Source: Clostridia bacterium (GTDB lineage: Bacteria > Bacillota > TC1 > UBA5767). Taken from it: a stretch of DNA of 47,507 nt. Position numbers and translations under genes: made by a program. Below are positions 2 to 23,923 of the stretch, piece after piece. The stretch's first letter is position 1, and the number at the start of each line of letters is the position of its first letter. A model generated the notes under the pieces. It was not told the DNA's origin. It saw only the letters and a list, made by a program, of their open reading frames with translations, and did no database searches. Where the stretch lies: NCBI GenBank assembly GCA_030625965.1, contig DAOUPV010000010.1:1-47507 (forward strand), written 5' to 3'.

Positions 2-361
2 TTTGACTTGAAGAACATCATCTCCGGCATGGGCACCTGCCCCATCGCACCGCCGATCCGCGACGAAGTAAAAGCCATGGACCGTGTAAACACCGCGCTC
101 CTTTACGGCGTGACCGTACGCTACACCGTGGACTGCAAGGATGAGGAAATCTTAGAGATTCTGGAATCACTGCCCTTTAACGCCTCCAAACGCTTCGGTG
201 AAGATTTCATCGATATTTTTGAAGAAGGCGAACGTGATTTCTATATTGTGGACAAGGACATCCATACGGTAGCCCGTTACGAGTTCACCAATATTGCCAC
301 CGGCAACAGCTTCGCAGCCGGTGAATTACGCGAAGATAAGCTGCAAAAATCCTTATTCTAG
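2..361 (+). CDS. mch: Methenyltetrahydromethanopterin cyclohydrolase homologue, C-terminal part
   Basis: The gene enters from the left edge, so only about the last 119 residues are visible. Mch reversibly hydrolyses the methenyl bridge of methenyl-tetrahydromethanopterin to the formyl form. The visible part lines up end to end, from memory, with the C-terminus of methylotroph Mch: FDLxxI, GMGTCPIAPP, AMDRVNTALLYG, a VD strand, an LPxxxS segment, an IF...DFY turn, and a closing TGxSFxxGxL...SF. The family is classic in methanogens and C1-oxidising Proteobacteria, so a Firmicute copy is unusual. The stop lies 37 bp before an FAD oxidoreductase on the same strand. Family membership is strong; whether the substrate is a methanopterin, a folate or another cyclic amidine is unknown. 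Confidence 0.85.
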   Translation, partial: FDLKNIISGMGTCPIAPPIRDEVKAMDRVNTALLYGVTVRYTVDCKDEEILEILESLPFNASKRFGEDFIDIFEEGERDFYIVDKDIHTVARYEFTNIATGNSFAAGELREDKLQKSLF

Positions 362-398
362 ATGTCTGACACGAGCTTGTGCAAAAGGAGCTGATAAC

Positions 399-1553
399 AT
401 GTCTCAAAGCTACGACTATCTCATTATCGGCGCGGGAATTCTCGGAACGTCTCTCAGCGCGGAATTGGCTGGTCGCAACAAAAGTGTCCTAATTCTCGAC
501 CAGCACGGTGTTGCTGGCGGAGCTTCCGGAGGCAACTTGGGTCAGATTTCCCTGATGGACCGCTTCGAGGACTGGCATCTGGATTTGGCGCTTGAGTCGA
601 GTGAGTATTATGCGGAACTGGGTAAGCGCCATCCCATAGGTTACAGACAACATGGCGGATCCATACTGCTGATGAACGACACGCAGATTGCGAGGGCGGA
701 AGAAGTGAAGCGCCTGCAAAATCTACGTGGCCTTTCCATGGAGATCCTTTCGCCTCAGGAAGCGCGCAGTTTGGAACCGAACCTCAAGAAGAATGGGCTG
801 GCGGCCATGGCGTATTGCAAACAGGAAGGCTGTCTGGATCCCTTGGCGCTGACCTTTTACATGTCAGATCTGGCTGTGGCCCGTGGAGCAACCATACAGA
901 CAGGTGAGCGGGTGCTAAGCTTATCAATGTCAGGCAGGGAGATAGGGCGGGTAGTAAGCGACAAAGGCACGTACCGCGCTAAGATCATCATCAACTGTGC
1001 GGGAGGCTGGTCTAGCAACGTTGCGGCCATGGTGGGGGAAGAACTTCCCATCCGCTCCCATAAGGGTACGGCGTTCGTAACCCAACCTATGCCTCCGATG
1101 TTGAGGACCACACTGGTCGGTGGGGGATTCCTGATGGAAGATACCGGAGAGGGTGCACCCGACTACCGGGTAGGCACGGCCATATGCCAACATGAAAATG
1201 GTAGCATCATCATTGGGCAAGCGACCGAAGCGGCGAACGTAGACGAACGGAGCTTGGGACGACGTGGACTCAGTGAGACGGCAAAAAACATTTTGAGTTA
1301 TTTTCCCGTTTTGGAGGGTGCGGATATCATCCGGGCCTGGGCACTATCTACCTCATATTCGGCAGACGGAAAACCGGTGTTGGGTTACAGCCCCAAGGCG
1401 GACAACCTGTTTACTGTGGCAGGATTCAAAGGTGCTTTCACAACGGCACCGGCCGTCGCCAGACGGGCAGCAGCCATGCTACTTTCGGGCGAGACCTTCG
1501 TCCATGAGATTGAACCAGATGGAAGGGAGCTATGTAAAGAACAATGCGGATAG
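399..1553 (+). CDS. FAD-dependent oxidoreductase, glycine/D-amino acid oxidase (DAO) family
   Basis: The 384-residue protein opens with a Rossmann dinucleotide-binding motif (YLIIGAGILGTSL, near residues 8-20) and an acidic strand end (LILDQ). It ends with the family's GFKGAFTTAPAVAR segment that closes over the flavin. Such enzymes oxidise the C-N bond of an amino acid or secondary amine, and relatives include sarcosine and dimethylglycine oxidases. I chose ATG 399 because AAAAGGAG lies eight bases upstream; the reading frame itself is open further upstream inside mch. It overlaps the next gene by 10 bp, which implies translational coupling. In an anaerobe an electron acceptor other than oxygen is likely. 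The substrate cannot be read from the sequence. Confidence 0.8.
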   Translation: MSQSYDYLIIGAGILGTSLSAELAGRNKSVLILDQHGVAGGASGGNLGQISLMDRFEDWHLDLALESSEYYAELGKRHPIGYRQHGGSILLMNDTQIARAEEVKRLQNLRGLSMEILSPQEARSLEPNLKKNGLAAMAYCKQEGCLDPLALTFYMSDLAVARGATIQTGERVLSLSMSGREIGRVVSDKGTYRAKIIINCAGGWSSNVAAMVGEELPIRSHKGTAFVTQPMPPMLRTTLVGGGFLMEDTGEGAPDYRVGTAICQHENGSIIIGQATEAANVDERSLGRRGLSETAKNILSYFPVLEGADIIRAWALSTSYSADGKPVLGYSPKADNLFTVAGFKGAFTTAPAVARRAAAMLLSGETFVHEIEPDGRELCKEQCG

Positions 1554-2329
1554 ATATTCATGTACACGATACGGAACCCATAGAGCTATTGTTGTCTTCC
1601 ATGGAACGGAACGGTTTTGATCAGGCTTTTGTCTGTTCGTCGGCCGTAGCCAAGGGAGAGAAGGTACGTTCCCTGGCAGATGCCAAAGCGGTGCTGGGCA
1701 ATGTAGCTAGAGCCCAGACAGCGGAAGGAAGCAAACGTTCGGTCCAGGAAGTGAATCTGGCCTTGGCGGAGAAACTCACACCTTATGCGGGACGTTTGTT
1801 CGGTTTTGGCAAGGTGGATTTGTACGACCGGGAGATTGAAGCACAGATGCAGTCCATCGTGGATGCCGGTCTCTACGGGGTAGGCGAGATCATCGGTATC
1901 CATGAGCACGTGGATCTGTTAAGACCGGTGCTTAGCTTTTCACAGACGCAGGGGAGCTTTCCTGTATTCATCCATTGTGATTTCCCTGTGGAGAAAGAGG
2001 ACTTGCATGCCCTGTTCGACCTGATCGGAGAATACCCGGTAGCGCGGGTCATTGTGGGCCACTTGGGTGGCAACCATTGGATCGATGCGCTGGAGAGGGT
2101 AGCGGACTTGGACAATTGCATCATCGACATCTCTGAAGTAGTCAATTATGTGCCACTGTCTGTTGCCATCACGGAATATCCGGAGAAGATAGCATTCGGT
2201 TCGGATTTCCCCTGGGACCTGCAGGAAGTGAATCTGGCCAGACTGAACCAGATGGACCTGGACGATAAGACCAAGGGACATGTGCTGGGGCAGAACGTAC
2301 AACGATTTTTGGAGTGGAATCATGAATAA
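1544..2329 (+). CDS. Amidohydrolase-related TIM-barrel hydrolase (PF04909), first of a pair
   Basis: The 261-residue protein carries the metal-dependent amidohydrolase pattern: HxH at residues 6 and 8 on strand 1, His144 (FIHCDF), His173 (VGHLGGNHW) and a catalytic Asp at 221 (FGSDFPW). This is the short PF04909 type, whose members hydrolyse lactones or amides or decarboxylate aromatic acids (for example ACMSD). The start codon lies inside the end of the FAD oxidoreductase gene, and the stop overlaps the next gene's start, so three enzymes are probably translated in step. The substrate is unknown; a ring-opening or hydrolytic step on the same compound handled by the neighbours is an inference. 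Confidence 0.75.
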   Translation: MRIDIHVHDTEPIELLLSSMERNGFDQAFVCSSAVAKGEKVRSLADAKAVLGNVARAQTAEGSKRSVQEVNLALAEKLTPYAGRLFGFGKVDLYDREIEAQMQSIVDAGLYGVGEIIGIHEHVDLLRPVLSFSQTQGSFPVFIHCDFPVEKEDLHALFDLIGEYPVARVIVGHLGGNHWIDALERVADLDNCIIDISEVVNYVPLSVAITEYPEKIAFGSDFPWDLQEVNLARLNQMDLDDKTKGHVLGQNVQRFLEWNHE

Positions 2330-3161
2330 GATTGATATGCACGTACATCTGACACCACCTTGTATTGAGAAACGTTGCGAGGCGATCAATAAGACTGAAC
2401 CCTACTGGCAGATGCTGGCGGAGAGTCCCAAGAACAGTTTCACCGATGCTGAGGGGCTTATTCGTGAAATGGACCGGGTGGGCATCGACAAGTCTGTGGT
2501 TTTCGGATTCTCCTTTTTGGATCCAGGTCTTTGCCGTGAAGTTAATGACTATACCATCGAAGCCATAGGGAAATATCCTGATCGGCTGATCGGATTCATG
2601 TCCGTATCCCCGCAGGATCAGGAGCTGGAACGCGAGATTTCGCGCTGTCAGGACAGCGGACTCAAGGGTATCGGGGAGATGTTTCCAGACGGGCAGCATT
2701 GGGATATCACGGACAAGTTGCAGACCGCGCCGCTGATTGACCTTTGTGCGGAACGTGATCTTCCTGTCATGGTGCATACCAATGAACGGGTGGGCCACTA
2801 CTATCCCGGCAAAGTTTCGACGACGCCGTTAGAAGCATCAAGACTGGCGGAGCATCATCCGGATGCGACTTTCATTTTCGCCCACTGGGGTGGAGGACTT
2901 CCCTTTTATGAACTGATGAAGGAAATCCGGAATAACAATAGGAACGTCTATTACGACACAGCAGCGAGCATCTTTTTGTATGATAATTCCATTTTCCGGG
3001 TAGCCCGGGAATTGGGTGTGCTGGACCGCGTTCTGTTTGCCAGCGACTATCCTTTGGTGTCGCCGGAGCGCTACTTTGATTACATCGACCATAGCGGCTT
3101 GAACCAGGAAGAGCTGGAAGCCGTGTACTATAGCAACGCGCAACGATTATTGGGGGAGTAA
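2322..3161 (+). CDS. Amidohydrolase-related TIM-barrel hydrolase (PF04909), second of a pair
   Basis: The 279-residue protein has HxH at residues 7 and 9 (MHVHLTPP), His152 (VMVHTNER), His188 (FAHWGGG) and Asp242 (FASDYPLVSPERY), the PF04909 metal and catalytic set. It is clearly distinct from the preceding PF04909 protein, so this is not a recent duplication but two enzymes that may act on successive intermediates. ATG 2322 is preferred over the upstream open frame because its ATG overlaps the previous stop, the usual coupling arrangement. The protein is probably cytoplasmic, with no signal peptide. Its reaction (hydrolase or non-oxidative decarboxylase) cannot be decided by eye. Confidence 0.75.
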   Translation: MNKIDMHVHLTPPCIEKRCEAINKTEPYWQMLAESPKNSFTDAEGLIREMDRVGIDKSVVFGFSFLDPGLCREVNDYTIEAIGKYPDRLIGFMSVSPQDQELEREISRCQDSGLKGIGEMFPDGQHWDITDKLQTAPLIDLCAERDLPVMVHTNERVGHYYPGKVSTTPLEASRLAEHHPDATFIFAHWGGGLPFYELMKEIRNNNRNVYYDTAASIFLYDNSIFRVARELGVLDRVLFASDYPLVSPERYFDYIDHSGLNQEELEAVYYSNAQRLLGE

Positions 3162-3164
3162 ACT

Positions 3165-4508
3165 ATGATTTGGATACAAGATCTGGACTATCTGATTCAA
3201 GACGCGGAACGCATCCTCTGCGGTGCGGATCTTCTGATTGACGGGGAGCGGATTGTTGCGGTGGGTAAGGTGGATCCGGAAAGCGCCCGTGGCGCTACAG
3301 TAATTTCGGGAAAAGGCAAAATCGCCATGCCGGGCTTCGTAAACACTCATACACATCTTTACCAGAATATGCTGAAGGGAATGGGTGACATGCTAAGGCT
3401 GAAGCCCTGGTGCGAACAGGTCACATTTCCTTTTGCCAGCATAATCCACCAGGAGGAGCGGGAAACCGATGAGCCTCAGCTGGGTTACCATTGGGCAGCG
3501 CTGGGAGCCATGGAAATGGTACGTAGCGGCATCACCAGCTTCGTGGACATGGACATCGTGCAAGACGGCGTGCTTAGGGCCTGGCAGGATGTTGGTGTGC
3601 GGGGCAACCTGGCATTGCAGCTGGTAAACCGTTGGGTACCGAAGGAACTGATGGTACCGGACGAACAGAGGAAGGAAAAGGCGCTGGGTATCATCGAGCG
3701 TTGGCATAACCGAGGGAAACTGAGTGTTTCTATGGCGCCATCTACGCCGTTTGCCTGCACGCCGGAGTTCCTGCTGTGGATCGCCAAGACCGCCGAAGAA
3801 AAAGATCTCCAAATCTATATCCATATTTCGGAAACCAATTGGGAAGTGCAACAAGCCAAGGACGAGACGGGATTCACCCCTTTCGGTTATTTGGAAGATG
3901 TTGGCTTCTTCACGAAACCGGTTCACGCCGTACACTGTGTTTGCGTGGAACCGGGCGATATTGAAATCATGAAGAAAAGGGGGATTGATGTCATCTACAA
4001 TCCCAAGAGCAACGCCAAACTGGGTAGCGGCATCGCGCCCATTGAGACGTATCTCAAGAACAAGATACCCGTCGCTGTATCGACTGACGGGCCGGCCTCC
4101 AACGACATGTTGGATATGTTCGAAGAGATGCGATTCGGACAGTTGCTACAAAAGGCAGCCAATTGCGATCCCCTGGCGGTAAGCGTCAAGGAGATGTTCA
4201 ATATGGCGACCAAAGAGGGCGCCAGGATGATGGACATCGAGGCAGGTGTGCTTGAAGAAGGCAAACTGGCAGATGTAGTCTTATTGGACGACAGTGGGGT
4301 GCATATGCAGCCCATGAACGGTGTCCTGCAAACAGTATTCTATTGTGCCAAGTCCCAGGATGTAGACTGCGTAATTATCGGGGGGGAAGTAGTTCTGCAG
4401 GACAAGGCATTTGTAACAGTGGATGAAAAAAGCATAATCAATAAAGCGGTTGAACTGAGAAACCGGGCGAAACAGCATGTTGGCGAGAAACTTGATGCGG
4501 ACTTTTAA
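3165..4508 (+). CDS. COG0402 metal-dependent deaminase (SsnA/TrzN/pterin-guanine deaminase superfamily)
   Basis: At 447 residues this is a full-length amidohydrolase-superfamily deaminase. Visible ligands are HTH at residues 62-64 (PGFVNTHTHLYQ), His220 and Glu223 (IHISET), His257 (AVHCVC) and Asp308 (STDGPASND). An N-terminal and C-terminal beta-sandwich flanks the barrel. Family members remove an amino group from N-heterocycles such as guanine, 8-oxoguanine, S-adenosylhomocysteine, s-triazines and pterins. With mch and an AbgB-like hydrolase as neighbours, a pterin deaminase role is plausible but unproven. It follows the second PF04909 gene by 3 bp and precedes ecfT by 19 bp, so it sits inside the transporter operon. 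A second, divergent COG0402 protein is at 22501. Confidence 0.8.
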   Translation: MIWIQDLDYLIQDAERILCGADLLIDGERIVAVGKVDPESARGATVISGKGKIAMPGFVNTHTHLYQNMLKGMGDMLRLKPWCEQVTFPFASIIHQEERETDEPQLGYHWAALGAMEMVRSGITSFVDMDIVQDGVLRAWQDVGVRGNLALQLVNRWVPKELMVPDEQRKEKALGIIERWHNRGKLSVSMAPSTPFACTPEFLLWIAKTAEEKDLQIYIHISETNWEVQQAKDETGFTPFGYLEDVGFFTKPVHAVHCVCVEPGDIEIMKKRGIDVIYNPKSNAKLGSGIAPIETYLKNKIPVAVSTDGPASNDMLDMFEEMRFGQLLQKAANCDPLAVSVKEMFNMATKEGARMMDIEAGVLEEGKLADVVLLDDSGVHMQPMNGVLQTVFYCAKSQDVDCVIIGGEVVLQDKAFVTVDEKSIINKAVELRNRAKQHVGEKLDADF

Positions 4509-4527
4509 GGACTGAGAGGGGAAAAAA

Positions 4528-5349
4528 ATGAGTATCTTAGACTATCATTACGGTGATTCATACATACATCGGATGGATCCCAGAGTTAAAATGATTTTAT
4601 TGATATTATTAACCATTGTGGTATTTATGATCAGTAACTTCTACGTATTGTTGGCAATGTTTGCCCTGGTGATGTTGGTGTGGAAGACGGCGAATCTCCC
4701 ACTTAAGAATATCATCGGGTATATGAAGTTCTTACTCAGCTTGGTTGCTTTTCTGATTGTTCTGCAGGGATTGTTCTTCTCTTCAGGCAGCAATCCGATT
4801 ATCCTAGTGCATCCCATAATACCTGAATCGGTGCCCGTGATCGGTGGTCACGGAACGGTTTATCTGGATGGTATCCTATTCGGATTGATTCTGGGATTCC
4901 GCCTGCTGACTCTTGTATGCATCATGCCCATCTTTGTTATGACGACGACCATCGGTGAGACGGCGCTGGGTTTGGTTAAACTGGGAATGAATTATAAATA
5001 TGCTTATATGACCACTACCGCGCTAAATCTGATTCCTACCTTGCAAGACGAGGCCAGAGTGGTAATGGATGCTCAGAAAATGAGAGGATTCCAAGTCTTT
5101 GAAACAGGCAAGTTCATGGAGAAGATGAGAGCATATAGCACCTTGGTGGTGCCCTTGGTTGTCGGTGCTATGCGCCGGGCCCAATTGATGGGCGTGGCCA
5201 TGGAAGCCAGGGCTTTTGGTGTGAAAAAGACCAGGACTTACCGCGACGAGCTGAACATGAGAAAAATTGACCTGGCGGCCGGCGTTCTTGTTGCATTCAT
5301 ATGTGTCGGAATGGTTTATTTCAATGGCTTGTTGGGAGGTTGGTATTAA
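4528..5349 (+). CDS. ecfT: Energy-coupling factor transporter transmembrane protein EcfT
   Basis: The 273-residue membrane protein is the scaffold of an ECF vitamin transporter, linking the ATPases to an S component. It shows the EcfT N-terminus (HRMDPRVKM), several hydrophobic helices, and two cytoplasmic coupling motifs with the Ala-Arg-Gly-like pattern (AQKMRGFQV near residue 185 and MEARAFGVKKTR near 230) that contact the ATPases. It precedes the first ATPase with a one-base stop/start overlap (TAATG). The transported compound is set by the S component; two candidate S genes lie 3 kb downstream in the same direction. Confidence 0.92.
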   Translation: MSILDYHYGDSYIHRMDPRVKMILLILLTIVVFMISNFYVLLAMFALVMLVWKTANLPLKNIIGYMKFLLSLVAFLIVLQGLFFSSGSNPIILVHPIIPESVPVIGGHGTVYLDGILFGLILGFRLLTLVCIMPIFVMTTTIGETALGLVKLGMNYKYAYMTTTALNLIPTLQDEARVVMDAQKMRGFQVFETGKFMEKMRAYSTLVVPLVVGAMRRAQLMGVAMEARAFGVKKTRTYRDELNMRKIDLAAGVLVAFICVGMVYFNGLLGGWY

Positions 5350-6221
5350 TGGGAACGATTATTGAGGCAAAAGAGTTTAGCTATTGCTATCCCCGTAGGG
5401 ACAATCAGGTCCTGAAGGATCTGAATTTCTCCATAGAAGAAGGTGAATTCATCGCCATCATGGGCAGGAACGGAGCAGGTAAATCCACTTTGTGCCAGGC
5501 TTTGGACGGTGTAATTCCCCATCTGCACGGCGGTACGGTCTGGGGGGACATCATCGTGGATGGTCTGAACACCCAGGAAGTCGAAGTGGCCGATATGGCC
5601 CAGAAGATCGGAATCGTGCTGGAAGATCCTGAGGCTCAGCTGTTCACGACCCGCGTGGATGATGAGATGGCCTTCGGCATTGAAAATCTATGCCTGCCCA
5701 GAGAAGAAATCATTAAGCGAATCGCATGGGCGACCAAGGTCGTTCGTTTGGAAGGCTATTCGGACAGAGAACCCACCGCACTTTCCGGGGGGCAGAAACA
5801 ACGTTGCGCCATCGCGGCCACACTGGCCATGAAGCCCAAGATCATGGTGCTGGACGAACCTACGTCCCAACTGGATCCCATCGGCACCTATGAGGTGTTT
5901 GATGTCATCAAGAGCCTCAAAGAGGAGTACGGCATGACCATCTTGATCACTACCCACAAGAGTGAACATATCGCCCAATACGCGGATAGAATCATGGTGA
6001 TGGAAGAAGGTAAGATTGTGGCCTTCGATACGCCGCAGGTCATTTTCCGGGATGCCAGGCTGCTCTCACACGTAGCGGTACGTCCGCCCCAGGTGTCTTC
6101 CTTGGCGGGTTACTTGAACAGCAACGGGCAGAACATCAAAAGGGAGGACTTCCCGATTCTGGTCGAAGAGGCAGAAGAAATGATTCGCAGTCTGATGGGG
6201 GGTAAAAAAGATGGCCAATAA
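5349..6221 (+). CDS. ecfA: Energy-coupling factor transporter ATPase, first subunit
   Basis: The 290-residue ABC ATPase has Walker A at residues 39-47 (GRNGAGKST), the canonical signature LSGGQ at 146-150, Walker B with catalytic Glu170 (IMVLDE) and a switch His (ITTHKSEH). It would pair with the next gene product as a heterodimer energising EcfT. ATG 5349 overlaps the ecfT stop by one base; upstream codons in this frame lie inside ecfT and were discarded. The stop overlaps the second ATPase start by 11 bp. The ecfT-ecfA-ecfA order embedded among catabolic genes, rather than in the ribosomal operon, points to a dedicated transporter rather than the shared group II module. Confidence 0.92.
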   Translation: MGTIIEAKEFSYCYPRRDNQVLKDLNFSIEEGEFIAIMGRNGAGKSTLCQALDGVIPHLHGGTVWGDIIVDGLNTQEVEVADMAQKIGIVLEDPEAQLFTTRVDDEMAFGIENLCLPREEIIKRIAWATKVVRLEGYSDREPTALSGGQKQRCAIAATLAMKPKIMVLDEPTSQLDPIGTYEVFDVIKSLKEEYGMTILITTHKSEHIAQYADRIMVMEEGKIVAFDTPQVIFRDARLLSHVAVRPPQVSSLAGYLNSNGQNIKREDFPILVEEAEEMIRSLMGGKKDGQ

Positions 6222-7044
6222 GATTATTGAGGTAAAAAACCTGAATTATCGCTATATGGACAACGGACCACTTTGTGTGAACAACATCAATCTGGAAGTA
6301 GAAGAGGGGGATTTCATCGGTATCATCGGGCAGAACGGGGCGGGCAAATCCACTCTGATGAAGGCCCTGACCGGACTGTTGCGTCCCAGCGAGGGACAGA
6401 TTTTCATCAATGGTGAGGATATTGCGGATATACCGGTTTCGGTGATTTCCAATACTTTGGGATACGTTTTGCAAAATCCTGACCGACAGCTGTTTGCTGA
6501 GACGGTACGGGAAGAGCTGGCCTTCGGACCGACGAATCAGGGTGTTTCCGAGGAGGAAATCGAAAAACGCACAGACTATATTCTGGAGTCGGTTGGAATC
6601 TTACATCTGGCAGATGAGTATCCTCCAGCATTGTCAAAAGGTGACCGGGCCAAAGTGGTCATCGGTTCAGTGATGGCCATGGAGCCAAAGATCATCATCT
6701 TGGACGAACCCACGGGCGGTCAGGACTACATCGGACGCTACCAGATTATGGATATTGCCAAGAAATTCAGGGAAAAAGGCCATACAGTTGTGGTGGTAAC
6801 CCACGCCATGAGCCTGGTTGCAGAATACTGCAATCGTATCGTCGTATTGTGCAACGGAGAAATCCTGATGCAAGGAACCAGCAGAGAAGTATTTTCACAG
6901 CCCGAGAAATTACAGCAGACCTTTATCAGACCACCCCAGATTACCGAATTGGCCAATGCCATGAAGGAAGAACTGCACATCGAAGAAACGCTGCTTTGCG
7001 TGGAAGAGATGGGGGACAAGGTGCTGGAGCATATTGAAGCATAG
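6211..7044 (+). CDS. ecfA: Energy-coupling factor transporter ATPase, second subunit (variant signature)
   Basis: The 277-residue ABC ATPase has Walker A at residues 40-48 (GQNGAGKST), a Q-loop (LQNPDRQLF), Walker B with Glu166 (IIILDE) and a switch His (VVTHAMS). Its signature reads LSKGD at 141-145 instead of LSGGQ, which would make one of the two composite ATP sites of the heterodimer non-canonical. I recall this variant from other dedicated ECF systems, so it is probably functional asymmetry rather than decay. It overlaps the first ATPase gene and is followed by an AbgB-like hydrolase 27 bp downstream. Confidence 0.9.
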   Translation: MANKIIEVKNLNYRYMDNGPLCVNNINLEVEEGDFIGIIGQNGAGKSTLMKALTGLLRPSEGQIFINGEDIADIPVSVISNTLGYVLQNPDRQLFAETVREELAFGPTNQGVSEEEIEKRTDYILESVGILHLADEYPPALSKGDRAKVVIGSVMAMEPKIIILDEPTGGQDYIGRYQIMDIAKKFREKGHTVVVVTHAMSLVAEYCNRIVVLCNGEILMQGTSREVFSQPEKLQQTFIRPPQITELANAMKEELHIEETLLCVEEMGDKVLEHIEA

Positions 7045-7071
7045 GATGGCAATCAATAAGGAGCATGCATC

Positions 7072-8403
7072 GTGAAAAAAGCTCTTGAATTTATGGAAGA
7101 ATTAGAAAAAGATGTGGGCATGCTGGCGTCGGAGATCTGGAGTCATCCCGAACTGGGACTGGAAGAAACCTTCGCAGTAGCCTTATATGAAGAGTATTTC
7201 CAGAAGCAGGGATTCTGTGTCAGCAAGGTGGAGGAGCTGCCTACGGCGCTGATCGCCGAGTATGGCAGTGGTACCCCTGTATTGGGTGTGTTGGGCGAAT
7301 ATGACGCACTTCCAGGGCTCTGGCAGTCCGTTTCCAGTCGAGAAGATGGATCCGAGGGAAAACCAGGTCATGGTTGCGGACACAATCTGCTCGGTGCCGC
7401 TTCGGCGGTTGCCTGTGTAGCCATAAAGAAATACTTAGAGGAAAATCAGGTACCGGGCACCATTAGATTCTACGGTTGTCCGGCCGAAGAGCTGGGCAAG
7501 GGTAAGATCCAGATGGACGAACACGGACTGTTCAACGATCTGGACGCATGTTACACCTGGCATCCGGGGTCCTGGAACGCGGTGACGGGCAGCAAGCTCA
7601 GCGCCCTGATCAAGGCGGAGTTCTTTTTTACAGGTCGCAGCGCGCATGCAGGCGCCCATCCCGAACTGGGACGGAGCGCGTTGGACGCGGTCGAGCTGAT
7701 GAATGTAGGGGCCAACTATCTGCGTGAGCATATACCGCAAGGCGCCAAGCTGCATTATGTCATTACCAATGGCGGCCAGGCGGCCAATATCGTACCTGCA
7801 GAAGCGAGTGTCCAATACATGGTCCGCGCACCCCGCCAGGCGAGCGCCCATGACGTATATGAGCGGTTGTTGAAAGTAGCCAATGGGGCCGCCATGATGA
7901 CCGAGACCAGCGTGCAGGTCATCAAGGAAAAAGACAACTATGACACCTTGAACAACCAGGTCTTGGAAGACTTGACTGACGAGGTATACCGGGAATGCGG
8001 GGGGATAACCTTTAGCCGGGAAGAATGCGAACTGGCCAAAGCCCTGGTTGAATCGTTGCCGGCGGAGCATTATGCAAATGCAAGGAATGTATACAAGAGT
8101 CCGGAAGGAATCTATCTGGATGGAGAAGCCAGGGGTATCCTGGGGCGGGGGGGAAGCTTCGGTGCTTCTTCCGATGTGGGACAGGTGTCGTACCGGGTTC
8201 CGACGGTTCAATGCTCTGCTGCATGCTTTCCGTTGGGGGTTCCGCTGCATACTTGGCAGACGACGGCTAGTGCCGGTTCGGATTTCGGTATTCGTGGTGC
8301 CACCTACATGGCTAAGATCATCGCGCGCAGTCTGGAACGGTTGTTGGAGGACGATACGGGTATCTTACAAAAAGCGAGACAGGAATTTCTGGCAGAAAGA
8401 TAG
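7072..8403 (+). CDS. M20 metallopeptidase, AbgB-like p-aminobenzoyl-glutamate hydrolase
   Basis: The 443-residue M20 enzyme matches AbgB closely in recognisable stretches: LGEYDALPGL, GHGCGHNLLG (His100, Cys102, His104), FYGCPAEELGKGK (Glu139/Glu140), TWHPGSWNAV (His164), the dimerisation-domain motif GRSAHAGAHPELGRSALDAVELMNVG (split here over residues 190-216) and a C-terminal TASAGSDFG. AbgB with AbgA cleaves p-aminobenzoyl-glutamate, a folate breakdown product, to p-aminobenzoate and glutamate. No abgA partner is visible, so it may act alone or on another amide. The start is GTG 7072 with AAGGAG eight bases upstream. Its position between an ECF core and ECF S components suggests that it processes what the transporter imports. 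Confidence 0.82.
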   Translation: MKKALEFMEELEKDVGMLASEIWSHPELGLEETFAVALYEEYFQKQGFCVSKVEELPTALIAEYGSGTPVLGVLGEYDALPGLWQSVSSREDGSEGKPGHGCGHNLLGAASAVACVAIKKYLEENQVPGTIRFYGCPAEELGKGKIQMDEHGLFNDLDACYTWHPGSWNAVTGSKLSALIKAEFFFTGRSAHAGAHPELGRSALDAVELMNVGANYLREHIPQGAKLHYVITNGGQAANIVPAEASVQYMVRAPRQASAHDVYERLLKVANGAAMMTETSVQVIKEKDNYDTLNNQVLEDLTDEVYRECGGITFSREECELAKALVESLPAEHYANARNVYKSPEGIYLDGEARGILGRGGSFGASSDVGQVSYRVPTVQCSAACFPLGVPLHTWQTTASAGSDFGIRGATYMAKIIARSLERLLEDDTGILQKARQEFLAER

Positions 8404-8444
8404 GTTATGAAATCTGCTAAGAAAATGAAATAGAGGCCGTTTAT

Positions 8445-8468
8445 GTTTCGAGAGCGCCAGCTTGAAAC
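8445..8468 (+). promoter_or_regulatory. Leader hairpin with AGCGCCAG loop before S component copy 1
   Basis: GTTTCGAG and CTTGAAAC form an 8-bp stem (one G-T pair) around the 8-base loop AGCGCCAG, extendable by an A-T and T-A pair. A perfect outer pairing, AAAATGAA at 8422-8429 with TTCATTTT at 8471-8478, could enclose it with a one-sided internal loop. It ends about 25 bases before the ribosome binding site. The same loop and a stem preserved by substitutions occur before copy 2, which supports a structured RNA. I cannot assign it to a known riboswitch class. Confidence 0.5.
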
Positions 8469-8509
8469 ATTTCATTTTGTTTTTTGGTTTTATAGGAGAG
8501 GTGACTATT

Positions 8510-9229
8510 TTGGCTGAAGCAAAGAAGTATGAAGGAAAAACGAACTTTGCCGTATACGCGGTATGGGCAGCACTTATTTCTGTAGCATCCTTGCTACCTT
8601 CCATCCCTATGGTCGGTACAGGGGGCACATTCAGTTTGAAAGCAATTGTATTGCCGTTGGCAGGCATCTTGTTCGGCCCTGCCGCCGGAGCTATCATTTG
8701 TGCCATCGGAGGCTTCATCGGACAGATGCTGGCTCCGCACACGGCATGGATGGGCATTGCAACCTTTATTACAGGTATCTTCACCGGAACCATCGCTGGA
8801 TTCGTATCCAGAGGCAACTGGAAAGTACCATTGGGCCTGCTAATTGTCTTTACCGGCCTATGGCTTAGTACTCCCATTGGTAGAGAAGCCATTATTTTCC
8901 CGGCTGTATTCTATTCATTGGGAGTCGTCACCATTATTCTCGGCGGAATCTTCGCTAGAAAATGGTTACTGGGCAGCAATCCTGCCTTGCGCGGCGCAGC
9001 CATCTGGCTGTCGGCATTCTCAGGTTTTGTATTGGCGGCGGGATATGCCAACTATGTGGGCGGTATACTGATGTTACAATTGCCTGCACAGGTTTGGGCA
9101 GGTCTGGCTTTTATTTCACCCATTGAGAGAGCGGTCTTTTCCTTGGGCGCAGCCATCATCGGGGTTCCCCTGCTGGTCGGTCTGCCTAAGATTGGTGTCT
9201 TTGTTGGCCCCAAGCCTGAGGGAGAGTAG
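8510..9229 (+). CDS. ECF transporter S component, copy 1
   Basis: The 239-residue, highly hydrophobic protein has the look of an ECF substrate-binding S component. It has a short charged N-terminus, the helix AVYAVWAALISVASLL, then a Gly-rich stretch (FSLKAIVLPLAGILFGPAAGAI) typical of S proteins, and further helices ending in GPKPEGE. I chose TTG 8510 because AGGAGAGG lies eight bases before it; the open frame extends upstream with no better site. It is 227 of 239 residues identical to the tandem copy downstream. The substrate is unknown; the neighbouring ecfT-ecfA-ecfA genes very likely supply its energy module. It has its own leader hairpin and terminator, so it can be expressed apart from the core. 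Confidence 0.8.
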   Translation: MAEAKKYEGKTNFAVYAVWAALISVASLLPSIPMVGTGGTFSLKAIVLPLAGILFGPAAGAIICAIGGFIGQMLAPHTAWMGIATFITGIFTGTIAGFVSRGNWKVPLGLLIVFTGLWLSTPIGREAIIFPAVFYSLGVVTIILGGIFARKWLLGSNPALRGAAIWLSAFSGFVLAAGYANYVGGILMLQLPAQVWAGLAFISPIERAVFSLGAAIIGVPLLVGLPKIGVFVGPKPEGE

Positions 9230-9248
9230 AAAAAAAATTACTGGCGCT

Positions 9249-9277
9249 GGTGCAGGGTTTATCCCTGCACCTTTTTT
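9249..9277 (+). terminator. Intrinsic terminator after S component copy 1
   Basis: GGTGCAGGG pairs perfectly with CCCTGCACC over a 5-base loop and is followed by TTTTTT. The same hairpin, with a changed loop, follows copy 2. Confidence 0.9.
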
Positions 9278-9404
9278 ATTTTTACCGCGGTAATCGGTGC
9301 GGATGCTTGAAACTAGTCAGATTACTGGGGCTAAGAGCAAAGAATTTCATGCAGGAAACTAAGTCTTGCAGGAAAATTGCTATAAATATAGAAGTTAAGT
9401 AACG

Positions 9405-9434
9405 TATAATGTTTTGGGAGCGCCAGCTCGAGAC
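9405..9434 (+). promoter_or_regulatory. TATAAT box and AGCGCCAG hairpin before S component copy 2
   Basis: TATAAT at 9405-9410 is a perfect -10 sequence but no convincing -35 lies 16-18 bases upstream. Directly after it, GTTTTGGG (9411-9418) pairs with CTCGAGAC (9427-9434) around the loop AGCGCCAG. If the box is used, the hairpin would sit at the extreme 5' end of the message. Confidence 0.45.
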
Positions 9435-9478
9435 GCATATTTCTGCATTTTTTTGATTTTATAAGAGAGGTGATTATT

Positions 9479-10198
9479 TTGGCTGAAGCAAAAAAGTATG
9501 AGGGAAAAACGAACTTCGCTGTTTATGCAGTATGGGCAGCACTCATTTCTGTAGCATCCCTGCTACCTTCCATTCCAATGGTTGGTACTGGTGGTACGTT
9601 CAGCTTGAAAGCAATTGTATTGCCGCTGGCCGGTATTTTATTCGGACCGGCTGCCGGAGCCATCATTTGTGCTATCGGGGGCTTCATCGGACAGATGTTG
9701 GCACCACACACAGCTTGGATGGGCATTGCAACATTTATTACTGGAATCTTTACCGGCACCATCGCCGGCTTCGTATCCAGAGGCAACTGGAAAATTCCGT
9801 TGGGCCTCTTGGTAATCTTCACGGGACTATGGCTCAGTACCTCGATCGGTAGACAAGCCATCATCTTCCCAGCCGTATTCTATACACTGGGTGCCATTAC
9901 CATTATCCTCGGCGGAATCTTCGCTAAGAAATGGCTGTTGGGTAGCAATCCTGCCTTGCGCGGCGCAGCCATCTGGTTGGCTTCGTTCTCAGGTTTTGTA
10001 CTGGCGGCAGGCTATGCCAACTATGTGGGGGGCATTTTGATGCTACAACTGCCTGCACAGGTTTGGACCGGTCTGGCTTTCATTTCACCCATTGAAAGAG
10101 CGGTATTTTCCTTGGGTGCAGCCATCATCGGGGTTCCCCTGCTGGTCGGTCTGCCTAAGATTGGTGTCTTTGTTGGCCCCAAGCCTGAGGGAGAGTAG
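9479..10198 (+). CDS. ECF transporter S component, copy 2
   Basis: This 239-residue near-twin of the S protein at 8510 has a TTG start and the ribosome binding site AGAGAGG eight bases upstream. The first 105 or so residues are identical to copy 1 despite many silent DNA changes. All 12 replacements lie in the second half (for example Pro to Ser, Glu to Gln, Arg to Lys and Ala to Thr). This pattern means both copies have been under selection for function. The copies may bind slightly different substrates, or serve dosage. It shares the ECF core at 4528-7044. Confidence 0.8.
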   Translation: MAEAKKYEGKTNFAVYAVWAALISVASLLPSIPMVGTGGTFSLKAIVLPLAGILFGPAAGAIICAIGGFIGQMLAPHTAWMGIATFITGIFTGTIAGFVSRGNWKIPLGLLVIFTGLWLSTSIGRQAIIFPAVFYTLGAITIILGGIFAKKWLLGSNPALRGAAIWLASFSGFVLAAGYANYVGGILMLQLPAQVWTGLAFISPIERAVFSLGAAIIGVPLLVGLPKIGVFVGPKPEGE

Positions 10199-17143: not shown

Positions 17144-17330
17144 TAAGGAAGAAACCTTAGCGACGTTAGAATAGTTGATATTATTATGAGATTAAAGGCG
17201 ATATCCACTGTGATGGAAAAATCGTGATCTTAAATGAAGTTCTCTATGGGAAATGTCTTTTCATCAAGAATGGTATAGTGATAATGAGGACTTTGCTTTT
17301 TGTGTGGTATCTCATAGAAAGGGCATATTA

Positions 17331-18092
17331 ATGGAAAACAAGAACATAAAATCTTTAGCTAATGGCATACAGGTCCTGCTAGCAATCCCGCATGGAAGGA
17401 TGGTTTCAGTGACTGAATTAAGTAGAAATTTAGGCATTACGAAAGGCTCTATAAGTAAAATACTCGCTACATTTCGGAGCTTTGGATTTGTTATACAAGA
17501 TGAACAAACTAAGAAGTACAGTTTAGGACCAGCTTTAATCACTTTAGGTTATCAAGCATTAAATCAGTTGGATATACGTGAATTAGCTAAACCTCATATG
17601 AAACATCTAACGAATAGATACAATGAAAATTCTATGCTAATGGTAATTCAAAACGAGCAGGCTATTGTTATTGAACAAAGTGAAGCAAGTGGTCCGATCA
17701 AGTTGACTGTGAAGATGGGTGAATCTCATCCGTTATACTGTGGCGCGATACCAAAATTACTTTTAGCGTTCATGCCTGAAGAAAAGATAAGAAGCATTGT
17801 CGAGAAGCTTGAGTTTAAACCATTAACAGAAAATACTATAATAGAACCTGAAATTCTCTATGAAAAGTTAATAGAAATTAGGAAGACCGGTTACAGTGTA
17901 AGCATTGAAGAGATGACCGAAGATGCAATGGCAGTAGCTGTGCCAATTAAAGATGTTAGCGGTGAAGTAATTGCAGGATTAGGTATTTCAGGACCAAAGA
18001 ACAGGATGGAAAGCCACGAACTAGAATCATTAGTTCAAGACCTTCTGATCAGCGCAGAACGAATTTCTAAAGAATTAGGTGCAAAAGCCTAA
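17331..18092 (+). CDS. IclR-family transcriptional regulator
   Basis: The 253-residue protein has an N-terminal winged helix-turn-helix (VSVTELSRNLGITKGSISKILATFRSFGFV, split around residues 24-54) and a GAF-like effector domain. The IclR-typical C-terminal pattern IRKTGYSVSIEEMTEDAMAVAVPIKD leads to GLGISGP. I took ATG 17331 because the sequence before it in the same open frame does not resemble the family. It is the first gene of the AT-rich block and faces the BMP lipoprotein gene, which is probably its target together with itself. The effector is unknown; a purine or a purine catabolite is a guess from context. Confidence 0.88.
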   Translation: MENKNIKSLANGIQVLLAIPHGRMVSVTELSRNLGITKGSISKILATFRSFGFVIQDEQTKKYSLGPALITLGYQALNQLDIRELAKPHMKHLTNRYNENSMLMVIQNEQAIVIEQSEASGPIKLTVKMGESHPLYCGAIPKLLLAFMPEEKIRSIVEKLEFKPLTENTIIEPEILYEKLIEIRKTGYSVSIEEMTEDAMAVAVPIKDVSGEVIAGLGISGPKNRMESHELESLVQDLLISAERISKELGAKA

Positions 18093-18099
18093 TTTTTTT
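18073..18099 (+). terminator. Weak intrinsic terminator at the iclR 3' end
   Basis: AATTAGG and CCTAATT form a 7-bp stem with an 8-base loop followed by seven T residues. It overlaps the last codons of iclR. Confidence 0.6.
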
Positions 18100-18140
18100 G
18101 AAACAAGTGAGAAACGAAGTTTCGCAAGAGGAAACGCAGG
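18100..18140 (+). promoter_or_regulatory. Candidate IclR operator cluster O2 upstream of the BMP lipoprotein gene
   Basis: GAAACGAAGTTTC (18111-18123) is a perfect 5-3-5 inverted repeat matching O1. Extra GAAAC half-sites lie at 18100 and 18131 (GAAACGCAG), giving spacing of about one and two helical turns. A possible promoter (TTGAGA at 18161 with TAATAA near 18182) lies downstream, so activation from upstream is conceivable. Confidence 0.5.
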
Positions 18141-18219
18141 GGGTGAGACAGCGAATTAGTTTGAGAGCAAAGTTGTGTATTTAATAAGTTGCGTATTTGA
18201 AAAATAGGAGGAGAACATC

Positions 18220-19245
18220 ATGAAGAAAAGATTAGTTTCGCTACTAGCTGTTTTTATGGTTCTTGCAATATTGCTGACGGGATGCGCTGGAGCTCAAGAG
18301 GATGCAGCTGGTGTTGAAGAACCAACTACGGTTGAAGAGCCAACAGAGGAAGTAGTTGAAGAACCTCTTAAAGTTGCACTTCTGTTACCCGGTACTCTTG
18401 CGGACCAGGGTTGGAATGCTATGGGTTACAAAGGCATAAAGACTGTCGAAGAAAAGTATGGGGTTGAGATTTCTTTTACTGAAAGTGTAACTCAGTCAGA
18501 CATGGAAGAAATTTTCGTAAATTATGCCAATTTGGGCTATGATCTGATCTTTGGACATGGTTCATCGTTTGCTGACAGCGCTATAATCGCATCGGAGAGA
18601 TTCCCTGAAGCTAAGTTTGTAATAATCAACGGTATTGTAGCCACAGATAATGTAGTTTCTATTAAGACAAGCGGTCATCATGCAGGATTCTTAACAGGGG
18701 CATTTGCTGCATTAATGTCGGAAACAGGTACAGTCGGTATGGTTGGCGGGAAAGAGATCCCTCCTATAATTGATGCCGTCAAAGGTTTCGAAGTAGGTGC
18801 TAAATATGTTAATCCTGATATTGAAGTATTAACTACTATAATAGGTAGTGGCACCGATGCTGCAAAAGCAAAAGAAACCGCGTTAGCCTTTATTGATAGA
18901 GGAGCTGATATTGTAGCACCCCTTGCTGACGTAGCTGGATTAGGTGTTTTCGAGGCATGCAAGGAAAGAGGGGTATATGCTATTGGTGGGAATAGTGACC
19001 AATATGAGCTAGCTCCAGAGAATATTTTAGTAAGTGTTATTAAAGATCTCCCGGTATCTTACACTTTTGCATATGAGAAATTGCTAGAAGGTACTCTTTC
19101 TAATGAAGTCTTTAATCTAGGTGTTGGGGAAGAAGTTATTTACTTTTCCTCTTATCATGATCATGCAGATAAAATATCAGATGAGGTTCAAGATGAGCTG
19201 AATCTTATAATTGCAGATCTTATAGATGGGAAAATTGAATTCTAA
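18220..19245 (+). CDS. BMP/PnrA-family substrate-binding lipoprotein
   Basis: The 341-residue exported lipoprotein has a basic start, a hydrophobic core and the lipobox LLTGC with Cys22 as the lipidation site. An acidic Glu/Pro/Val-rich linker (residues 25-48) follows. The binding domain then shows the BMP pattern: VALLLPGTLADQGWNAMGYKGI, DLIFGHGSSFADS, GHHAGFLTGAFAALM, GMVGG and an ADIVAPLADVAGLGVFEA stretch. PnrA-type proteins deliver purine nucleosides to ABC importers. The cognate permeases and double ATPase are most likely those at 29067-33699, about 10 kb away. AGGAGGAG precedes the ATG. The DNA is AT-rich like its neighbours. Confidence 0.9.
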   Translation: MKKRLVSLLAVFMVLAILLTGCAGAQEDAAGVEEPTTVEEPTEEVVEEPLKVALLLPGTLADQGWNAMGYKGIKTVEEKYGVEISFTESVTQSDMEEIFVNYANLGYDLIFGHGSSFADSAIIASERFPEAKFVIINGIVATDNVVSIKTSGHHAGFLTGAFAALMSETGTVGMVGGKEIPPIIDAVKGFEVGAKYVNPDIEVLTTIIGSGTDAAKAKETALAFIDRGADIVAPLADVAGLGVFEACKERGVYAIGGNSDQYELAPENILVSVIKDLPVSYTFAYEKLLEGTLSNEVFNLGVGEEVIYFSSYHDHADKISDEVQDELNLIIADLIDGKIEF

Positions 19246-19302
19246 ATAGAAATAACTGCTTGTAGCACTTTTGACACAATTTCAAACGATGGTAGGAAAT
19301 AA

Positions 19303-19342
19303 TTGCTAATTCCCTGGACCAAAGCGTTTAGGGAATTAGCAA
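19303..19342. other. Strong inverted repeat between lipoprotein and flavoprotein genes
   Basis: TTGCTAATTCCCT and AGGGAATTAGCAA are a perfect 13-bp inverted repeat with a 14-base spacer. No T-run follows on either strand, so it is not a clear terminator. It may be an mRNA processing or stabilising hairpin, or an operator. Confidence 0.6.
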
Positions 19343-19464
19343 ATATTAAATCAATATTTCAATTGAACGGAATAAGAAAGATATGTGATAGGAAATTAAT
19401 TAGAAATAATATTCGACAATGAATTTGATAAGTTAAGAAGAAAAATTTTTGTAAGGAGGTTAGT

Positions 19465-20064
19465 ATGACGAAAATATTGGGAATATCTGCTAGTCCTAGA
19501 AATGAAGCTACAGATTTCGTTGTAAAAAGAGCTTTAGAAAAGGCTCAAGAGTTTGGAGTAGAAACAGAATATATATCTTTAAGAGGAAAAAAGATCAAAA
19601 ATTGTAATCATTGCGATTATTGTATGAAAAACAAAACTGGGTGCATTATTAACGATGATATGAAATGGATTACCGAAAAATTTTTGGAAGCTGATGGATA
19701 TATTATTGGTTCACCGGTTTATACATACAATCCAACCCCTGAGATTATTTCATTTTTTAATCGTTTGCGGCCTATGCGCTTTCTACCTAAAATTGGTTCA
19801 AAGTTTAAAGTTGGTGGTGCAATCAGCGTAGGTGGTACTAGAAATGGTGGACAGGAAATGACAATTAATTGTCTGATAAATTGTTTTTTAGCAAGGGAAA
19901 TTATGGTTATTGGTGGTTCTATGGGAAATTATTCTGGTGGGAAGGTATGGACTGATAATCAAGGAAAAATTGGGGCTGAGCACGATGAATTAGGATTACT
20001 AAGTGTTACTGATTTAGGACAAAGAGTTGCTGAAGCAGCTTTGCTTTTACGAGACAAGAGATAA
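19465..20064 (+). CDS. Iron-sulfur flavoprotein (Isf-like, NADPH-dependent FMN reductase fold)
   Basis: The 199-residue flavodoxin-fold protein has the FMN phosphate loop GISASPRNEATD at its start and a compact cysteine motif CX2CX2CX6C (Cys47, 50, 53, 60) that in Isf proteins binds a 4Fe-4S cluster. Later motifs are IIGSPVYTYNPTPE and GGTRNGGQE. Isf proteins pass single electrons between ferredoxin and FMN in anaerobes. AAGGAGG lies upstream of the ATG. It sits between the lipoprotein and an aldehyde ferredoxin oxidoreductase, so it may be an electron carrier for that enzyme. Paralogues are at 31479 and 47252. Confidence 0.88.
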   Translation: MTKILGISASPRNEATDFVVKRALEKAQEFGVETEYISLRGKKIKNCNHCDYCMKNKTGCIINDDMKWITEKFLEADGYIIGSPVYTYNPTPEIISFFNRLRPMRFLPKIGSKFKVGGAISVGGTRNGGQEMTINCLINCFLAREIMVIGGSMGNYSGGKVWTDNQGKIGAEHDELGLLSVTDLGQRVAEAALLLRDKR

Positions 20065-20423
20065 CAGACTCAAGATTAGGTTCATATAATATTGGATGAA
20101 TCTGCAGTGGTAATTTTGAGGTTAAAATTTACTTCTATGAGTAATTAGCTTGATAAATTGATATGTTAGCAAACAGTGATGGTTATTAAATATTGTCAAT
20201 GTGAAGGGTAAGTTGAAGCAGGATGCTGAAATATTAAGACTAATAATTTATTCATAATTTCGTTTATTCGGATACAACAAAATATAACGGTCTAAGAGTA
20301 ATTAAGCAATAGTTTATTAAGTGTGAAAAATAGAATTTCAATTATTTAGTTGCTGTATGAGACTAAGAACTGAGCGATTGAAATGAAAATAATTGTTATT
20401 TAGATAGCATTAAGGAGAAATCA
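20065..20423. other. Intergenic stretch without recognised features
   Basis: About 360 bp of very AT-rich DNA separate the iron-sulfur flavoprotein from the aldehyde oxidoreductase gene. I see no open reading frame with a ribosome binding site, no convincing terminator and no tRNA. AAGGAG near 20411 serves the next gene. Confidence 0.5.
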
Positions 20424-22265
20424 ATGAATCCAATTTTAGTAATCAATTTGAGTGATAAGACTTTTTCTTATCAGGATCTACCTAATACCATAGTAGATAA
20501 CTATATAGGGGGGCGTGGTCTTGGTATTGCTCTTCTTTCTAAGTATGGTAATGGGAACAGAGCATATTCACCAGAAAACCCCCTGATTTTTACTGTTGGA
20601 CCATTCACTGGAACTAGTTTCCCTTCTAGTGTACAGTGGCAGGTCACAAGCAAATCACCATTAACCAACGGATTAGGTGGTGGGTTTTCTTGGGGAGAAT
20701 TTGGAATAGGACTCATAAGAACTGGATTAAGTGGAGTGGTCTTTATTGGGAAACTGGATGAGACAGGTTATGTTTTCATTAGTGAGAATGAGGTTATATT
20801 CAAAGATGCATCTTTTCTTAAGGGAAAAGATACTCGTAAGACTACTGAAGAATTAAAAAATATTCATCAAAAAAGTAATGTAGTTACTATCGGACCAGCA
20901 GGTGAAAAGATGTCTGGGTTAGCAAGTATTATATCTGATAGTTACCATATGGTTATCCGGACGGGGTTGGGAGCCATTATGGGTAGTAAGAATTTAAAAG
21001 CAGTGGTTATAAGTGGAGAAAAAGAGACTGAGGAAAATGACAGTTTTATTGAATTGTCCACGGAACTTTCAGAGCAAGTGAAGAATTTCCCGGCCTCCGT
21101 ACGACTTAGGGATGAAGGGAAATCTATGCTCATACGTAGCAAGAATCAGGTCGGGGATCTAGCTACTAATAATCATCAGCAAACAAGCTTTGAGCATGTT
21201 GATAATATTGATGCCGACGCACTGAAAAAATATACAGTAGGTAATGTTTTCTGTCCAGGTTGCTCAATAGGATGTATAAGAAAAAGTAAAATTGGAAGAG
21301 ACACAATAGAAGGACCTGGATATGAGACTATATGGGCTCTTGGACCAAGAATAGGTAATGGTGATCTCGAATTCTTAATTGATCTATATAATAGATGTCT
21401 TTTAGAAGGTGTTGACCCAATTTCATTAGGTGGTGTGTTAGCATTTGCCATTGAATGTATAGAGAAGGATCTGATTAAATCAACATATGATTTGTCATGG
21501 GGAAATAAAGAGGGTATTAATAAATTCTTCGAGGAATTAGTTGAGGGAAAAGGATTGGGTGGAGATTTAAGAAATGGAACCAAGGAATATTATCTTAAAT
21601 ATCCCGAGACCAAACCATATGCAATGGAAGTTAAGGGAGTAGAATTGTCAGGACAGGAGCCTAGACAAAGTAAAGCATTCGGACTTTCACTTGCAGTAAG
21701 TAACTGGGGAGCAGATTGGGGTTATGGATTACCTACGATGGATGTTGCTCATAACGTTGATGCTGCAGAGCAAATTTTCCCAAGACTCGTTCCTGAGATC
21801 CTTGAGGTGACAGAGGAACAATACAAAGCTGAACTCGTTAAATTTTCTGAAGAATTTAACGCTATATCAGATTCTTTAGGGATTTGTAAATTCGCCTGTC
21901 CAGAAACTTTTGCTTTAATGCCGGATGATTTAGCTAAAAGCTATAGCGCGTATTTTAATAAAGAGATATCAACAGAGGATTTACTTTTAATAGGTGAGAG
22001 AATTATTAACCTGGAAAGAATATTCAGTTTGAATGAAGGCCTGACTGCTGAAGATGACTATTTGCCAGAGCGCTTTACATCAGATCCCATTATTGTTGAT
22101 GTTTACTCTGGTGATAGACTAAAGGGACTAGAAAAAACAGGTGATAAAAAAAGCCTTGTGAACAATATAAGCATAATGAAAAGTGAATATTATAAGTTAA
22201 GAGACTGGCCCAATGGAGTTCCTTCTAAGGAAAAAATGTGCCAACTGAAGATTAATGATATGTAG
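20424..22265 (+). CDS. Aldehyde ferredoxin oxidoreductase family tungsten/molybdenum enzyme
   Basis: The 613-residue protein is a full-length AOR family member. It has the N-terminal YIGGRGLGIALL, the cofactor-binding segments PLIFTVGPFTGT and TSKSPLTNGLGGGFSWGEFG, and four cysteines for a 4Fe-4S cluster: Cys277, Cys280, Cys284 (CPGCSIGC) and Cys488 (SLGICKF). The KNLKAVVISG motif is also typical. Such enzymes oxidise aldehydes, or reduce acids, with ferredoxin using a bis-pterin tungsten cofactor, but the family includes members with other substrates. The true substrate here is open. It lies between the flavoprotein and a COG0402 deaminase in the AT-rich block, so a role on a heterocycle or its aldehyde product is possible. 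Confidence 0.9.
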   Translation: MNPILVINLSDKTFSYQDLPNTIVDNYIGGRGLGIALLSKYGNGNRAYSPENPLIFTVGPFTGTSFPSSVQWQVTSKSPLTNGLGGGFSWGEFGIGLIRTGLSGVVFIGKLDETGYVFISENEVIFKDASFLKGKDTRKTTEELKNIHQKSNVVTIGPAGEKMSGLASIISDSYHMVIRTGLGAIMGSKNLKAVVISGEKETEENDSFIELSTELSEQVKNFPASVRLRDEGKSMLIRSKNQVGDLATNNHQQTSFEHVDNIDADALKKYTVGNVFCPGCSIGCIRKSKIGRDTIEGPGYETIWALGPRIGNGDLEFLIDLYNRCLLEGVDPISLGGVLAFAIECIEKDLIKSTYDLSWGNKEGINKFFEELVEGKGLGGDLRNGTKEYYLKYPETKPYAMEVKGVELSGQEPRQSKAFGLSLAVSNWGADWGYGLPTMDVAHNVDAAEQIFPRLVPEILEVTEEQYKAELVKFSEEFNAISDSLGICKFACPETFALMPDDLAKSYSAYFNKEISTEDLLLIGERIINLERIFSLNEGLTAEDDYLPERFTSDPIIVDVYSGDRLKGLEKTGDKKSLVNNISIMKSEYYKLRDWPNGVPSKEKMCQLKINDM

Positions 22266-22500
22266 CCTTTTCATAATTTGAATAGTTTGAACAATGCAAA
22301 TTTTGACTTCAGTGAATACATTAGAATTAAATTATGTTTTTTATATTTGATAAACTTACTCAGAATAATCCTCCCAGTGATTTGAAAGTTTTTGTTTAAA
22401 CGTAGCCGAATAGCATACTGCTACAAGTGCTATCAGTTCAAATAGATAATGGGTAAGTTTATCTTTTACTCAGATTATTGAAAAAGAGGAAATTAAAGGA

Positions 22501-23847: not shown

Positions 23848-23923
23848 TAACAATTTAACAGTGTCTAGTATTTCGATGTGAGTGTGGATAATAACTCAGT
23901 TATGCGATCTTCCTACAGCAAGG

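Follow-up and report, generated by a model that had tools for sequence, protein, structure and literature searches.

An operon of a Clostridia bacterium as a probable module for the import and degradation of tetrahydropterin-type compounds

The stretch of DNA analyzed here, which we refer to as the window, is a 47,507-nucleotide contig (C145) of the genome of a Clostridia bacterium (G000; 2.57 Mb in 148 contigs, 98% complete). It starts with an operon encoding a Mch-like protein, a DAO-family flavoenzyme, two PF04909 hydrolases, a COG0402 aminohydrolase, an energy-coupling factor (ECF) transporter and an AbgB-like M20 amidohydrolase. Our analyses indicate that this operon is probably one module of a wider system that imports and degrades tetrahydropterin-type compounds in an anaerobic Bacillota lineage, and that the substrate of this particular module may be a folate-like conjugate. 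The evidence consists of the gene content, its conservation, the clade structure of the Mch-like proteins, the absence of methanopterin markers and the co-occurrence with pterin-linked families. That the substrate belongs to the pterin class is quite likely; that it is a folate-type conjugate is a tentative proposal, with the balance leaning against it. We are less sure of a folate substrate than of a pterin in general because the AbgB-like gene and a MeTr-like gene are limited to one genus.

The contig start interrupts the Mch-like gene of the window; the N-terminal part of the gene is located, together with a GntR regulator and the MeTr-like gene, on contig C64 (L036). The remaining fragment is 94% identical to the full-length MchC of the complete congeneric genome G002, and both proteins belong to PF02289, scoring above the cut-off of 25 bits (332 bits for the full-length protein; for the fragment, see Table 1). 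The host genome has six PF02289 matches, contig-edge fragments included. None of the C1 (one-carbon) genes typical of C1-type mch loci are present in the neighbourhood of the window mch. In addition, neither beta-RFAP synthase, an enzyme of methanopterin synthesis (TIGR00144), nor FTR (PF01913) was found in the 98% complete host genome, and FolD is encoded there. On the basis of these absences and the presence of FolD, we conclude that Mch in this host is not serving a methanopterin C1 pathway.

A maximum-likelihood tree places the 29 full-length non-C1 Mch proteins, without exception, in a single clade that is distinct from the C1-pathway MCH of archaea and bacteria (support 99). This clade splits into subclades A to D, which track gene context, and the window protein belongs to clade C. 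The equivalents of Arg183 and Glu186 (A. fulgidus Mch numbering), which we take from structural work on that enzyme to be the catalytic residues, are kept in the full-length relatives, in a region that the window fragment does not cover. Position 94 is Phe in the clade of the window and Lys in archaea; since most bacterial C1 MCH have Tyr at this position, it was discarded as an indicator of lost function. A structure model of MchC had a predicted local distance difference test score (pLDDT) of 50, which is too poor for use.

The genes of clades A and B lie beside an E1-alpha/E1-beta/E2 complex, an SDR and a GntR-FCD regulator; several genomes have a lipoate ligase, a BMP-ABC transporter, an FMN reductase and COG0402 at these loci as well. 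Clade D genes occur with a short Mch paralogue, an FMN reductase, FolB and BMP-ABC, often accompanied by COG0402, AFOR or Fe-ADH. The clade D FolB scores above the TIGR00525 cut-off, keeps the Glu, Tyr and Lys residues that are presumably catalytic and, in four genomes, is a second copy with another FolB encoded elsewhere. Clade C genes are found with DAO, COG0402 and PF04909, plus ECF or BMP-ABC, in UBA5767, Clostridia AS08sgBPME_225 (L055), Lachnospiraceae SUG1151 (L056) and Oscillibacter (L057); no PF04909 gene was seen at the L056 module. RibD_C (DHFR-fold) reductases lie beside several modules, and the module regulators include LacI besides GntR proteins.

Two further searches gave results that are free of the bias of a search with Mch. 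The search for FTR homologues yielded loci that also encode COG0402 and importers and, in one case, DAO. The deaminases of these FTR loci are the nearest relatives of the window deaminase (support 91; 99 for the set with L096 and L097), which in the tree groups with the deaminases of the Mch-C and FTR modules. The search with FolB led to host contig C133 (L091, G000:C133:8000-27900), which carries XdhA/B, an FMN reductase, RibD_C, COG0402, a tandem FolB-like protein and FolB. The sequence-only reading of the window had proposed that a folate- or methanopterin-like molecule is imported, cleaved at its amide, deaminated and ring-opened, which is a plausible order of events. Its pterin direction is strengthened by the occurrence of Mch relatives with FolB, RibD_C, COG0402, importers and GntR/LacI regulators, and of the same deaminase lineage with FTR; its folate-amide step is not, AbgB being confined to the genus. 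The recurrence of the gene set in other genomes was likewise partial: conserved neighbourhoods in other families contain Mch-like genes, in part because the search was made with Mch, but no AbgB occurs beyond the genus.

We compared 21 non-C1 Mch loci with 11 loci containing C1-type or unassigned MCH. GntR was present at 17/21 of the former and 0/11 of the latter, BMP-ABC at 12/21 and 1/11, FMN reductase at 10/21 and 0/11, and E1 at 9/21 and 0/11; the compared loci are mutually related, and p-values therefore overstate the enrichment. PF02289 is present in 25 of the 398 genomes of the phylum sample. The class of the window comprises ten genomes, eight of which contain PF02289, including all seven near-complete ones (7/7).

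Several loci found in these searches have features of their own. Each of the short Mch paralogues (240-271 aa; L045:8722-9537, L058:15669, L061:9965, L062:9897 and L068:8558) adjoins a full-length Mch of clade D; these paralogues no longer have the equivalent of Glu186 and may be non-catalytic partner subunits. The Mch of L066 (G160:C3:3724000-3743900), which adjoins a BMP-ABC transporter, is placed by the tree on the C1 side, as a long branch, and is possibly an independent recruitment. L043 (G005:C1:1192000-1211000) is a decayed Mch/BMP/COG0402/RibD_C/SDR module with short frames and an internal stop; this relative is in the process of losing the system. The two-domain FolB-like protein of L091 (239 aa) is also present in G002, G004 and G083. 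At L093, L098, L101 and L102, an FTR homologue and COG0402 are found with two Zn-alcohol dehydrogenases and ECF genes; the longer loci of this set also contain a sugar kinase, and L093 a URO-D family protein. These modules perhaps handle a pterin or flavin that bears a polyol side chain.

The genes of the window operon are listed in Table 1. All genes named in the sequence-only reading are present on the plus strand, each scoring above the curated Pfam cut-off of its own family, and their tight spacing was confirmed from DAO to M20, with gaps of -11 to +27 bp; wider gaps separate Mch from DAO (37 bp), M20 from S1 (97 bp) and S1 from S2 (240 bp). Intact versions of the operon are found in G002 (L038) and Peptococcaceae bacterium UBA5767 (L040/L054), where it is headed by a GntR-UTRA regulator and the MeTr-like PF00809 protein, followed by a full-length Mch. 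The order in G002 is GntR, MeTr-like, Mch-like, DAO, two PF04909, COG0402, ECF T/A/A, AbgB-like M20 and S component. No tetrahydrofolate (THF) riboswitch that could control the operon was found.

Table 1. Genes of the operon at the start of the window.
Feature	Position	Strand	Evidence
Mch-like protein (clade C), C-terminal 119 residues	2..361	+	PF02289 126 bits, profile positions 194-310 of 311
DAO-family FAD amine oxidoreductase	399..1553	+	PF01266 197 bits; ATG with AAGGAG upstream
PF04909 amidohydrolase a	1544..2329	+	PF04909 58 bits
PF04909 amidohydrolase b	2325..3161	+	PF04909 118 bits; start somewhere in 2280-2325
COG0402 aminohydrolase/deaminase	3165..4508	+	PF01979 206 bits; metal-site motifs HTH, HISE, HC, STDG intact
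ECF transporter T component	4528..5349	+	CbiQ PF02361 121 bits
ECF ATPase 1	5349..6221	+	TIGR04520 270 bits, under cut-off 315
ECF ATPase 2	6211..7044	+	TIGR04521 258 bits, under cut-off 330
M20 amidohydrolase, AbgB-like	7072..8403	+	TIGR01891 228 bits, cut-off 154
ECF S component copy 1	8501..9229 (about)	+	PF07155 41 bits, cut-off 27
ECF S component copy 2, tandem duplicate	9470..10198 (about)	+	95% protein, 87% DNA identity to copy 1

The T component, two ATPases and S component (CbiQ, two ABC_tran and PF07155) together give the composition of an ECF transporter. Two S components had been predicted and both are present; however, they are local tandem copies, differing at 73 synonymous and 12 non-synonymous codons, and three congeneric operons have a single S gene. 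Against the FolT-family profile TIGR04518, the S component scores 22 bits (cut-off 60). Its structure model (pLDDT 64) gives weak matches to S-component folds, with FolT near the top.

The COG0402 protein, a putative pterin deaminase, has intact metal-site motifs. The nearest solved structure to PF04909 protein a is 3cjp (E 1e-30), itself of unassigned function, and protein b distantly matches ACMSD-type decarboxylase structures. The M20 protein had been called AbgB-like, and this holds: over 437 residues it shares 40% identity with E. coli AbgB, compared with 28% over 272 residues with AbgA. No second M20 gene that could encode an AbgA partner is present in the window operon or in three congeneric copies. 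The MeTr-like protein of the G002 and UBA5767 operons scores 229 bits against PRK07535, under the cut-off of 259, and matches PDB entry 2YCI with E 6e-44. For its corrinoid partner CdhD/AcsD there is no true PF03599 match in G000-G002 or G004, where only weak MeTr-type matches were obtained; acetogenesis with the MeTr-like gene in the role of AcsE was rejected because CdhD/AcsD is missing.

Two other parts of the assembly resemble the operon. L006 (G000:C9) is a second copy with 73.5% DNA identity to window:1-10500, and adjoins the same DivIC-type gene; the first 140 nt of the Mch fragment are identical in both. Either the bin includes DNA of another congeneric genome, or the operon is present twice and a repeat was collapsed where the sequence breaks off. 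Another cluster, at 17253-33699 of the window, encodes an IclR regulator, a BMP protein, two FMN reductases, AFOR, COG0402 (22501-23847), LacI, an XDH-type molybdenum subunit (26730-29033), and two BMP permeases plus ATPase, and looks like another pterin- or purine-type module.

From the chemistry of the enzyme families, we infer the substrate and every reaction of the following route. The ECF transporter and S component would import the pterin, after which the AbgB-like M20 enzyme would cleave an amide of the glutamate or aminobenzoyl type. The ancestors of the MeTr-like and Mch-like proteins bind the tetrahydropterin nucleus, and these two proteins may then take off one-carbon groups or act on the reduced ring by hydrolysis. 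Dehydrogenation of a C-N bond, such as C9-N10 of folate, by the DAO flavoenzyme could give a pterin aldehyde and an arylamine; this enzyme perhaps uses redox subunits whose genes lie in other parts of the genome. The COG0402 enzyme would deaminate the pterin, and the two PF04909 hydrolases would process the opened ring. In sister modules, FolB may remove a neopterin-type side chain, and the SDR with E1/E2 may convert a side chain of the biopterin type to acetyl-CoA and a pterin aldehyde, with the aldehyde possibly oxidised by AFOR. Amide cleavage is the weakest part of this pathway because AbgB and MeTr are confined to this genus; it is a lineage add-on or wrong. A bolder version, to which we give slightly less than even weight, is that these bacteria are dedicated pterin/folate eaters with a previously undescribed pathway, in which Mch/FTR-like enzymes from methanogenic C1 metabolism have turned into tetrahydropterin dismantlers with interchangeable side-chain removers (FolB, SDR plus E1/E2, or a DAO dehydrogenase) and importers (BMP-ABC or ECF).

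Several observations weigh against the pterin interpretation. Most loci were found via Mch, and the constancy of Mch among them is therefore by construction. FolB alone does not discriminate (5/21 non-C1 loci against 3/11 controls), because methanopterin-type (C1) clusters carry FolB too. The M20 and MeTr-like genes are not conserved outside the genus, the S component is nearer to the riboflavin-S than to the FolT profile, and the window operon itself lacks a pterin side-chain enzyme. Finally, purine-using systems, too, typically have COG0402, BMP transporters and XDH.

The last point bears on the closest alternative, in which the operon serves the catabolism of a purine-like or hydantoin-like heterocycle and the Mch-like protein was recruited to hydrolyse an imidazoline-type ring. 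Deoxyadenosine and 8-oxoguanine deaminases are among the COG0402 profiles closest to the window protein, BMP-type transporters, which are usually nucleoside importers, serve many sister modules, and XDH-type enzymes are present in related clusters. We nevertheless consider this alternative unlikely, since it leaves the joint occurrence of Mch, FTR, MeTr, FolB and RibD_C around the same deaminases unexplained. ECF systems typically import vitamins, which would fit salvage, i.e., the import of folate or pterin and its trimming to p-aminobenzoate and hydroxymethylpterin for the host's own folate synthesis. This is improbable: the deaminase would destroy the pterin for folate use, and the GntR/LacI regulators, the several parallel modules per genome, and the aldehyde oxidoreductases and E1/E2 of sister modules point to bulk degradation. 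Least probable of all is that Mch acts in energy or housekeeping metabolism as a methenyl-tetrahydrofolate or methenyl-tetrahydromethanopterin cyclohydrolase with incidental neighbours, for although the catalytic residues are kept in full-length relatives and haloarchaeal Mch is thought to act on tetrahydrofolate (PMC8305020), the host encodes FolD and lacks beta-RFAP synthase, FTR and CdhD/AcsD, and the several Mch paralogues per genome form a clade separate from C1 MCH in a catabolic neighbourhood.

Breakdown of pterins and folates without oxygen is poorly known, and in the open-access literature we found nothing on target describing anaerobic pterin catabolism or Mch in such operons. If tetrahydropterin catabolism is indeed the function, the operon identifies the genes of such a pathway, two enzyme families of methanogenesis acquire a new role, and it becomes clear why bacteria that make no methanopterin have "methanopterin" genes. 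In that case, the related modules of Lachnospiraceae and Oscillibacter could also matter for the influence of these bacteria on folate and biopterin.

The operon shares features with several known systems. Like the gene clusters of purine-fermenting clostridia, the sister clusters combine deaminases, XDH-type enzymes and BMP-type importers for what would be anaerobic heterocycle degradation; unlike them, pterin-linked Mch, FTR, FolB, RibD_C and MeTr take part, and this operon has no XDH. Relatives of the window DAO are encoded, as in heteromeric dehydrogenases of the hydroxyproline/octopine/HcnABC type, with Pyr_redox, BFD and Fer4 (L055), often together with Fer2_4 (L056 and L057). In the window operon, by contrast, DAO stands alone, and complete partner sets are located at other sites, on contig C40 of the host (L106) and in G002 (L104). 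Apparent in-frame TGA codons in redox-partner genes were rejected as recoding, as they reflect read-through upstream of the true start. The window deaminase belongs to the same superfamily as the COG0402 pterin and isoxanthopterin deaminases of the Raushel laboratory, and 2paj, which we take to be an isoxanthopterin deaminase, is among its structure matches, but it is closer to ATZ/MTA/SAH-type members than to 2paj. A pterin deaminase paper is among the works cited in PMC5788505. The similarity of the M20 protein to AbgB (40%) suggests an analogy with E. coli abgTBA in the import and amide cleavage of a folate fragment; however, the operon lacks AbgA and AbgT, has an ECF importer instead, and also contains a deaminase and Mch-like genes. 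Finally, the full-length Mch relatives share PF02289, about 36-42% identity and the Arg183/Glu186 equivalents with the solved archaeal methenyl-tetrahydromethanopterin cyclohydrolases. They differ from the enzymes of archaea and methylotrophs in forming a separate clade, in having Phe instead of Lys/Tyr at position 94, in occurring in a host without a methanopterin pathway, and in a neighbourhood of import, deaminase and amine-oxidoreductase genes.

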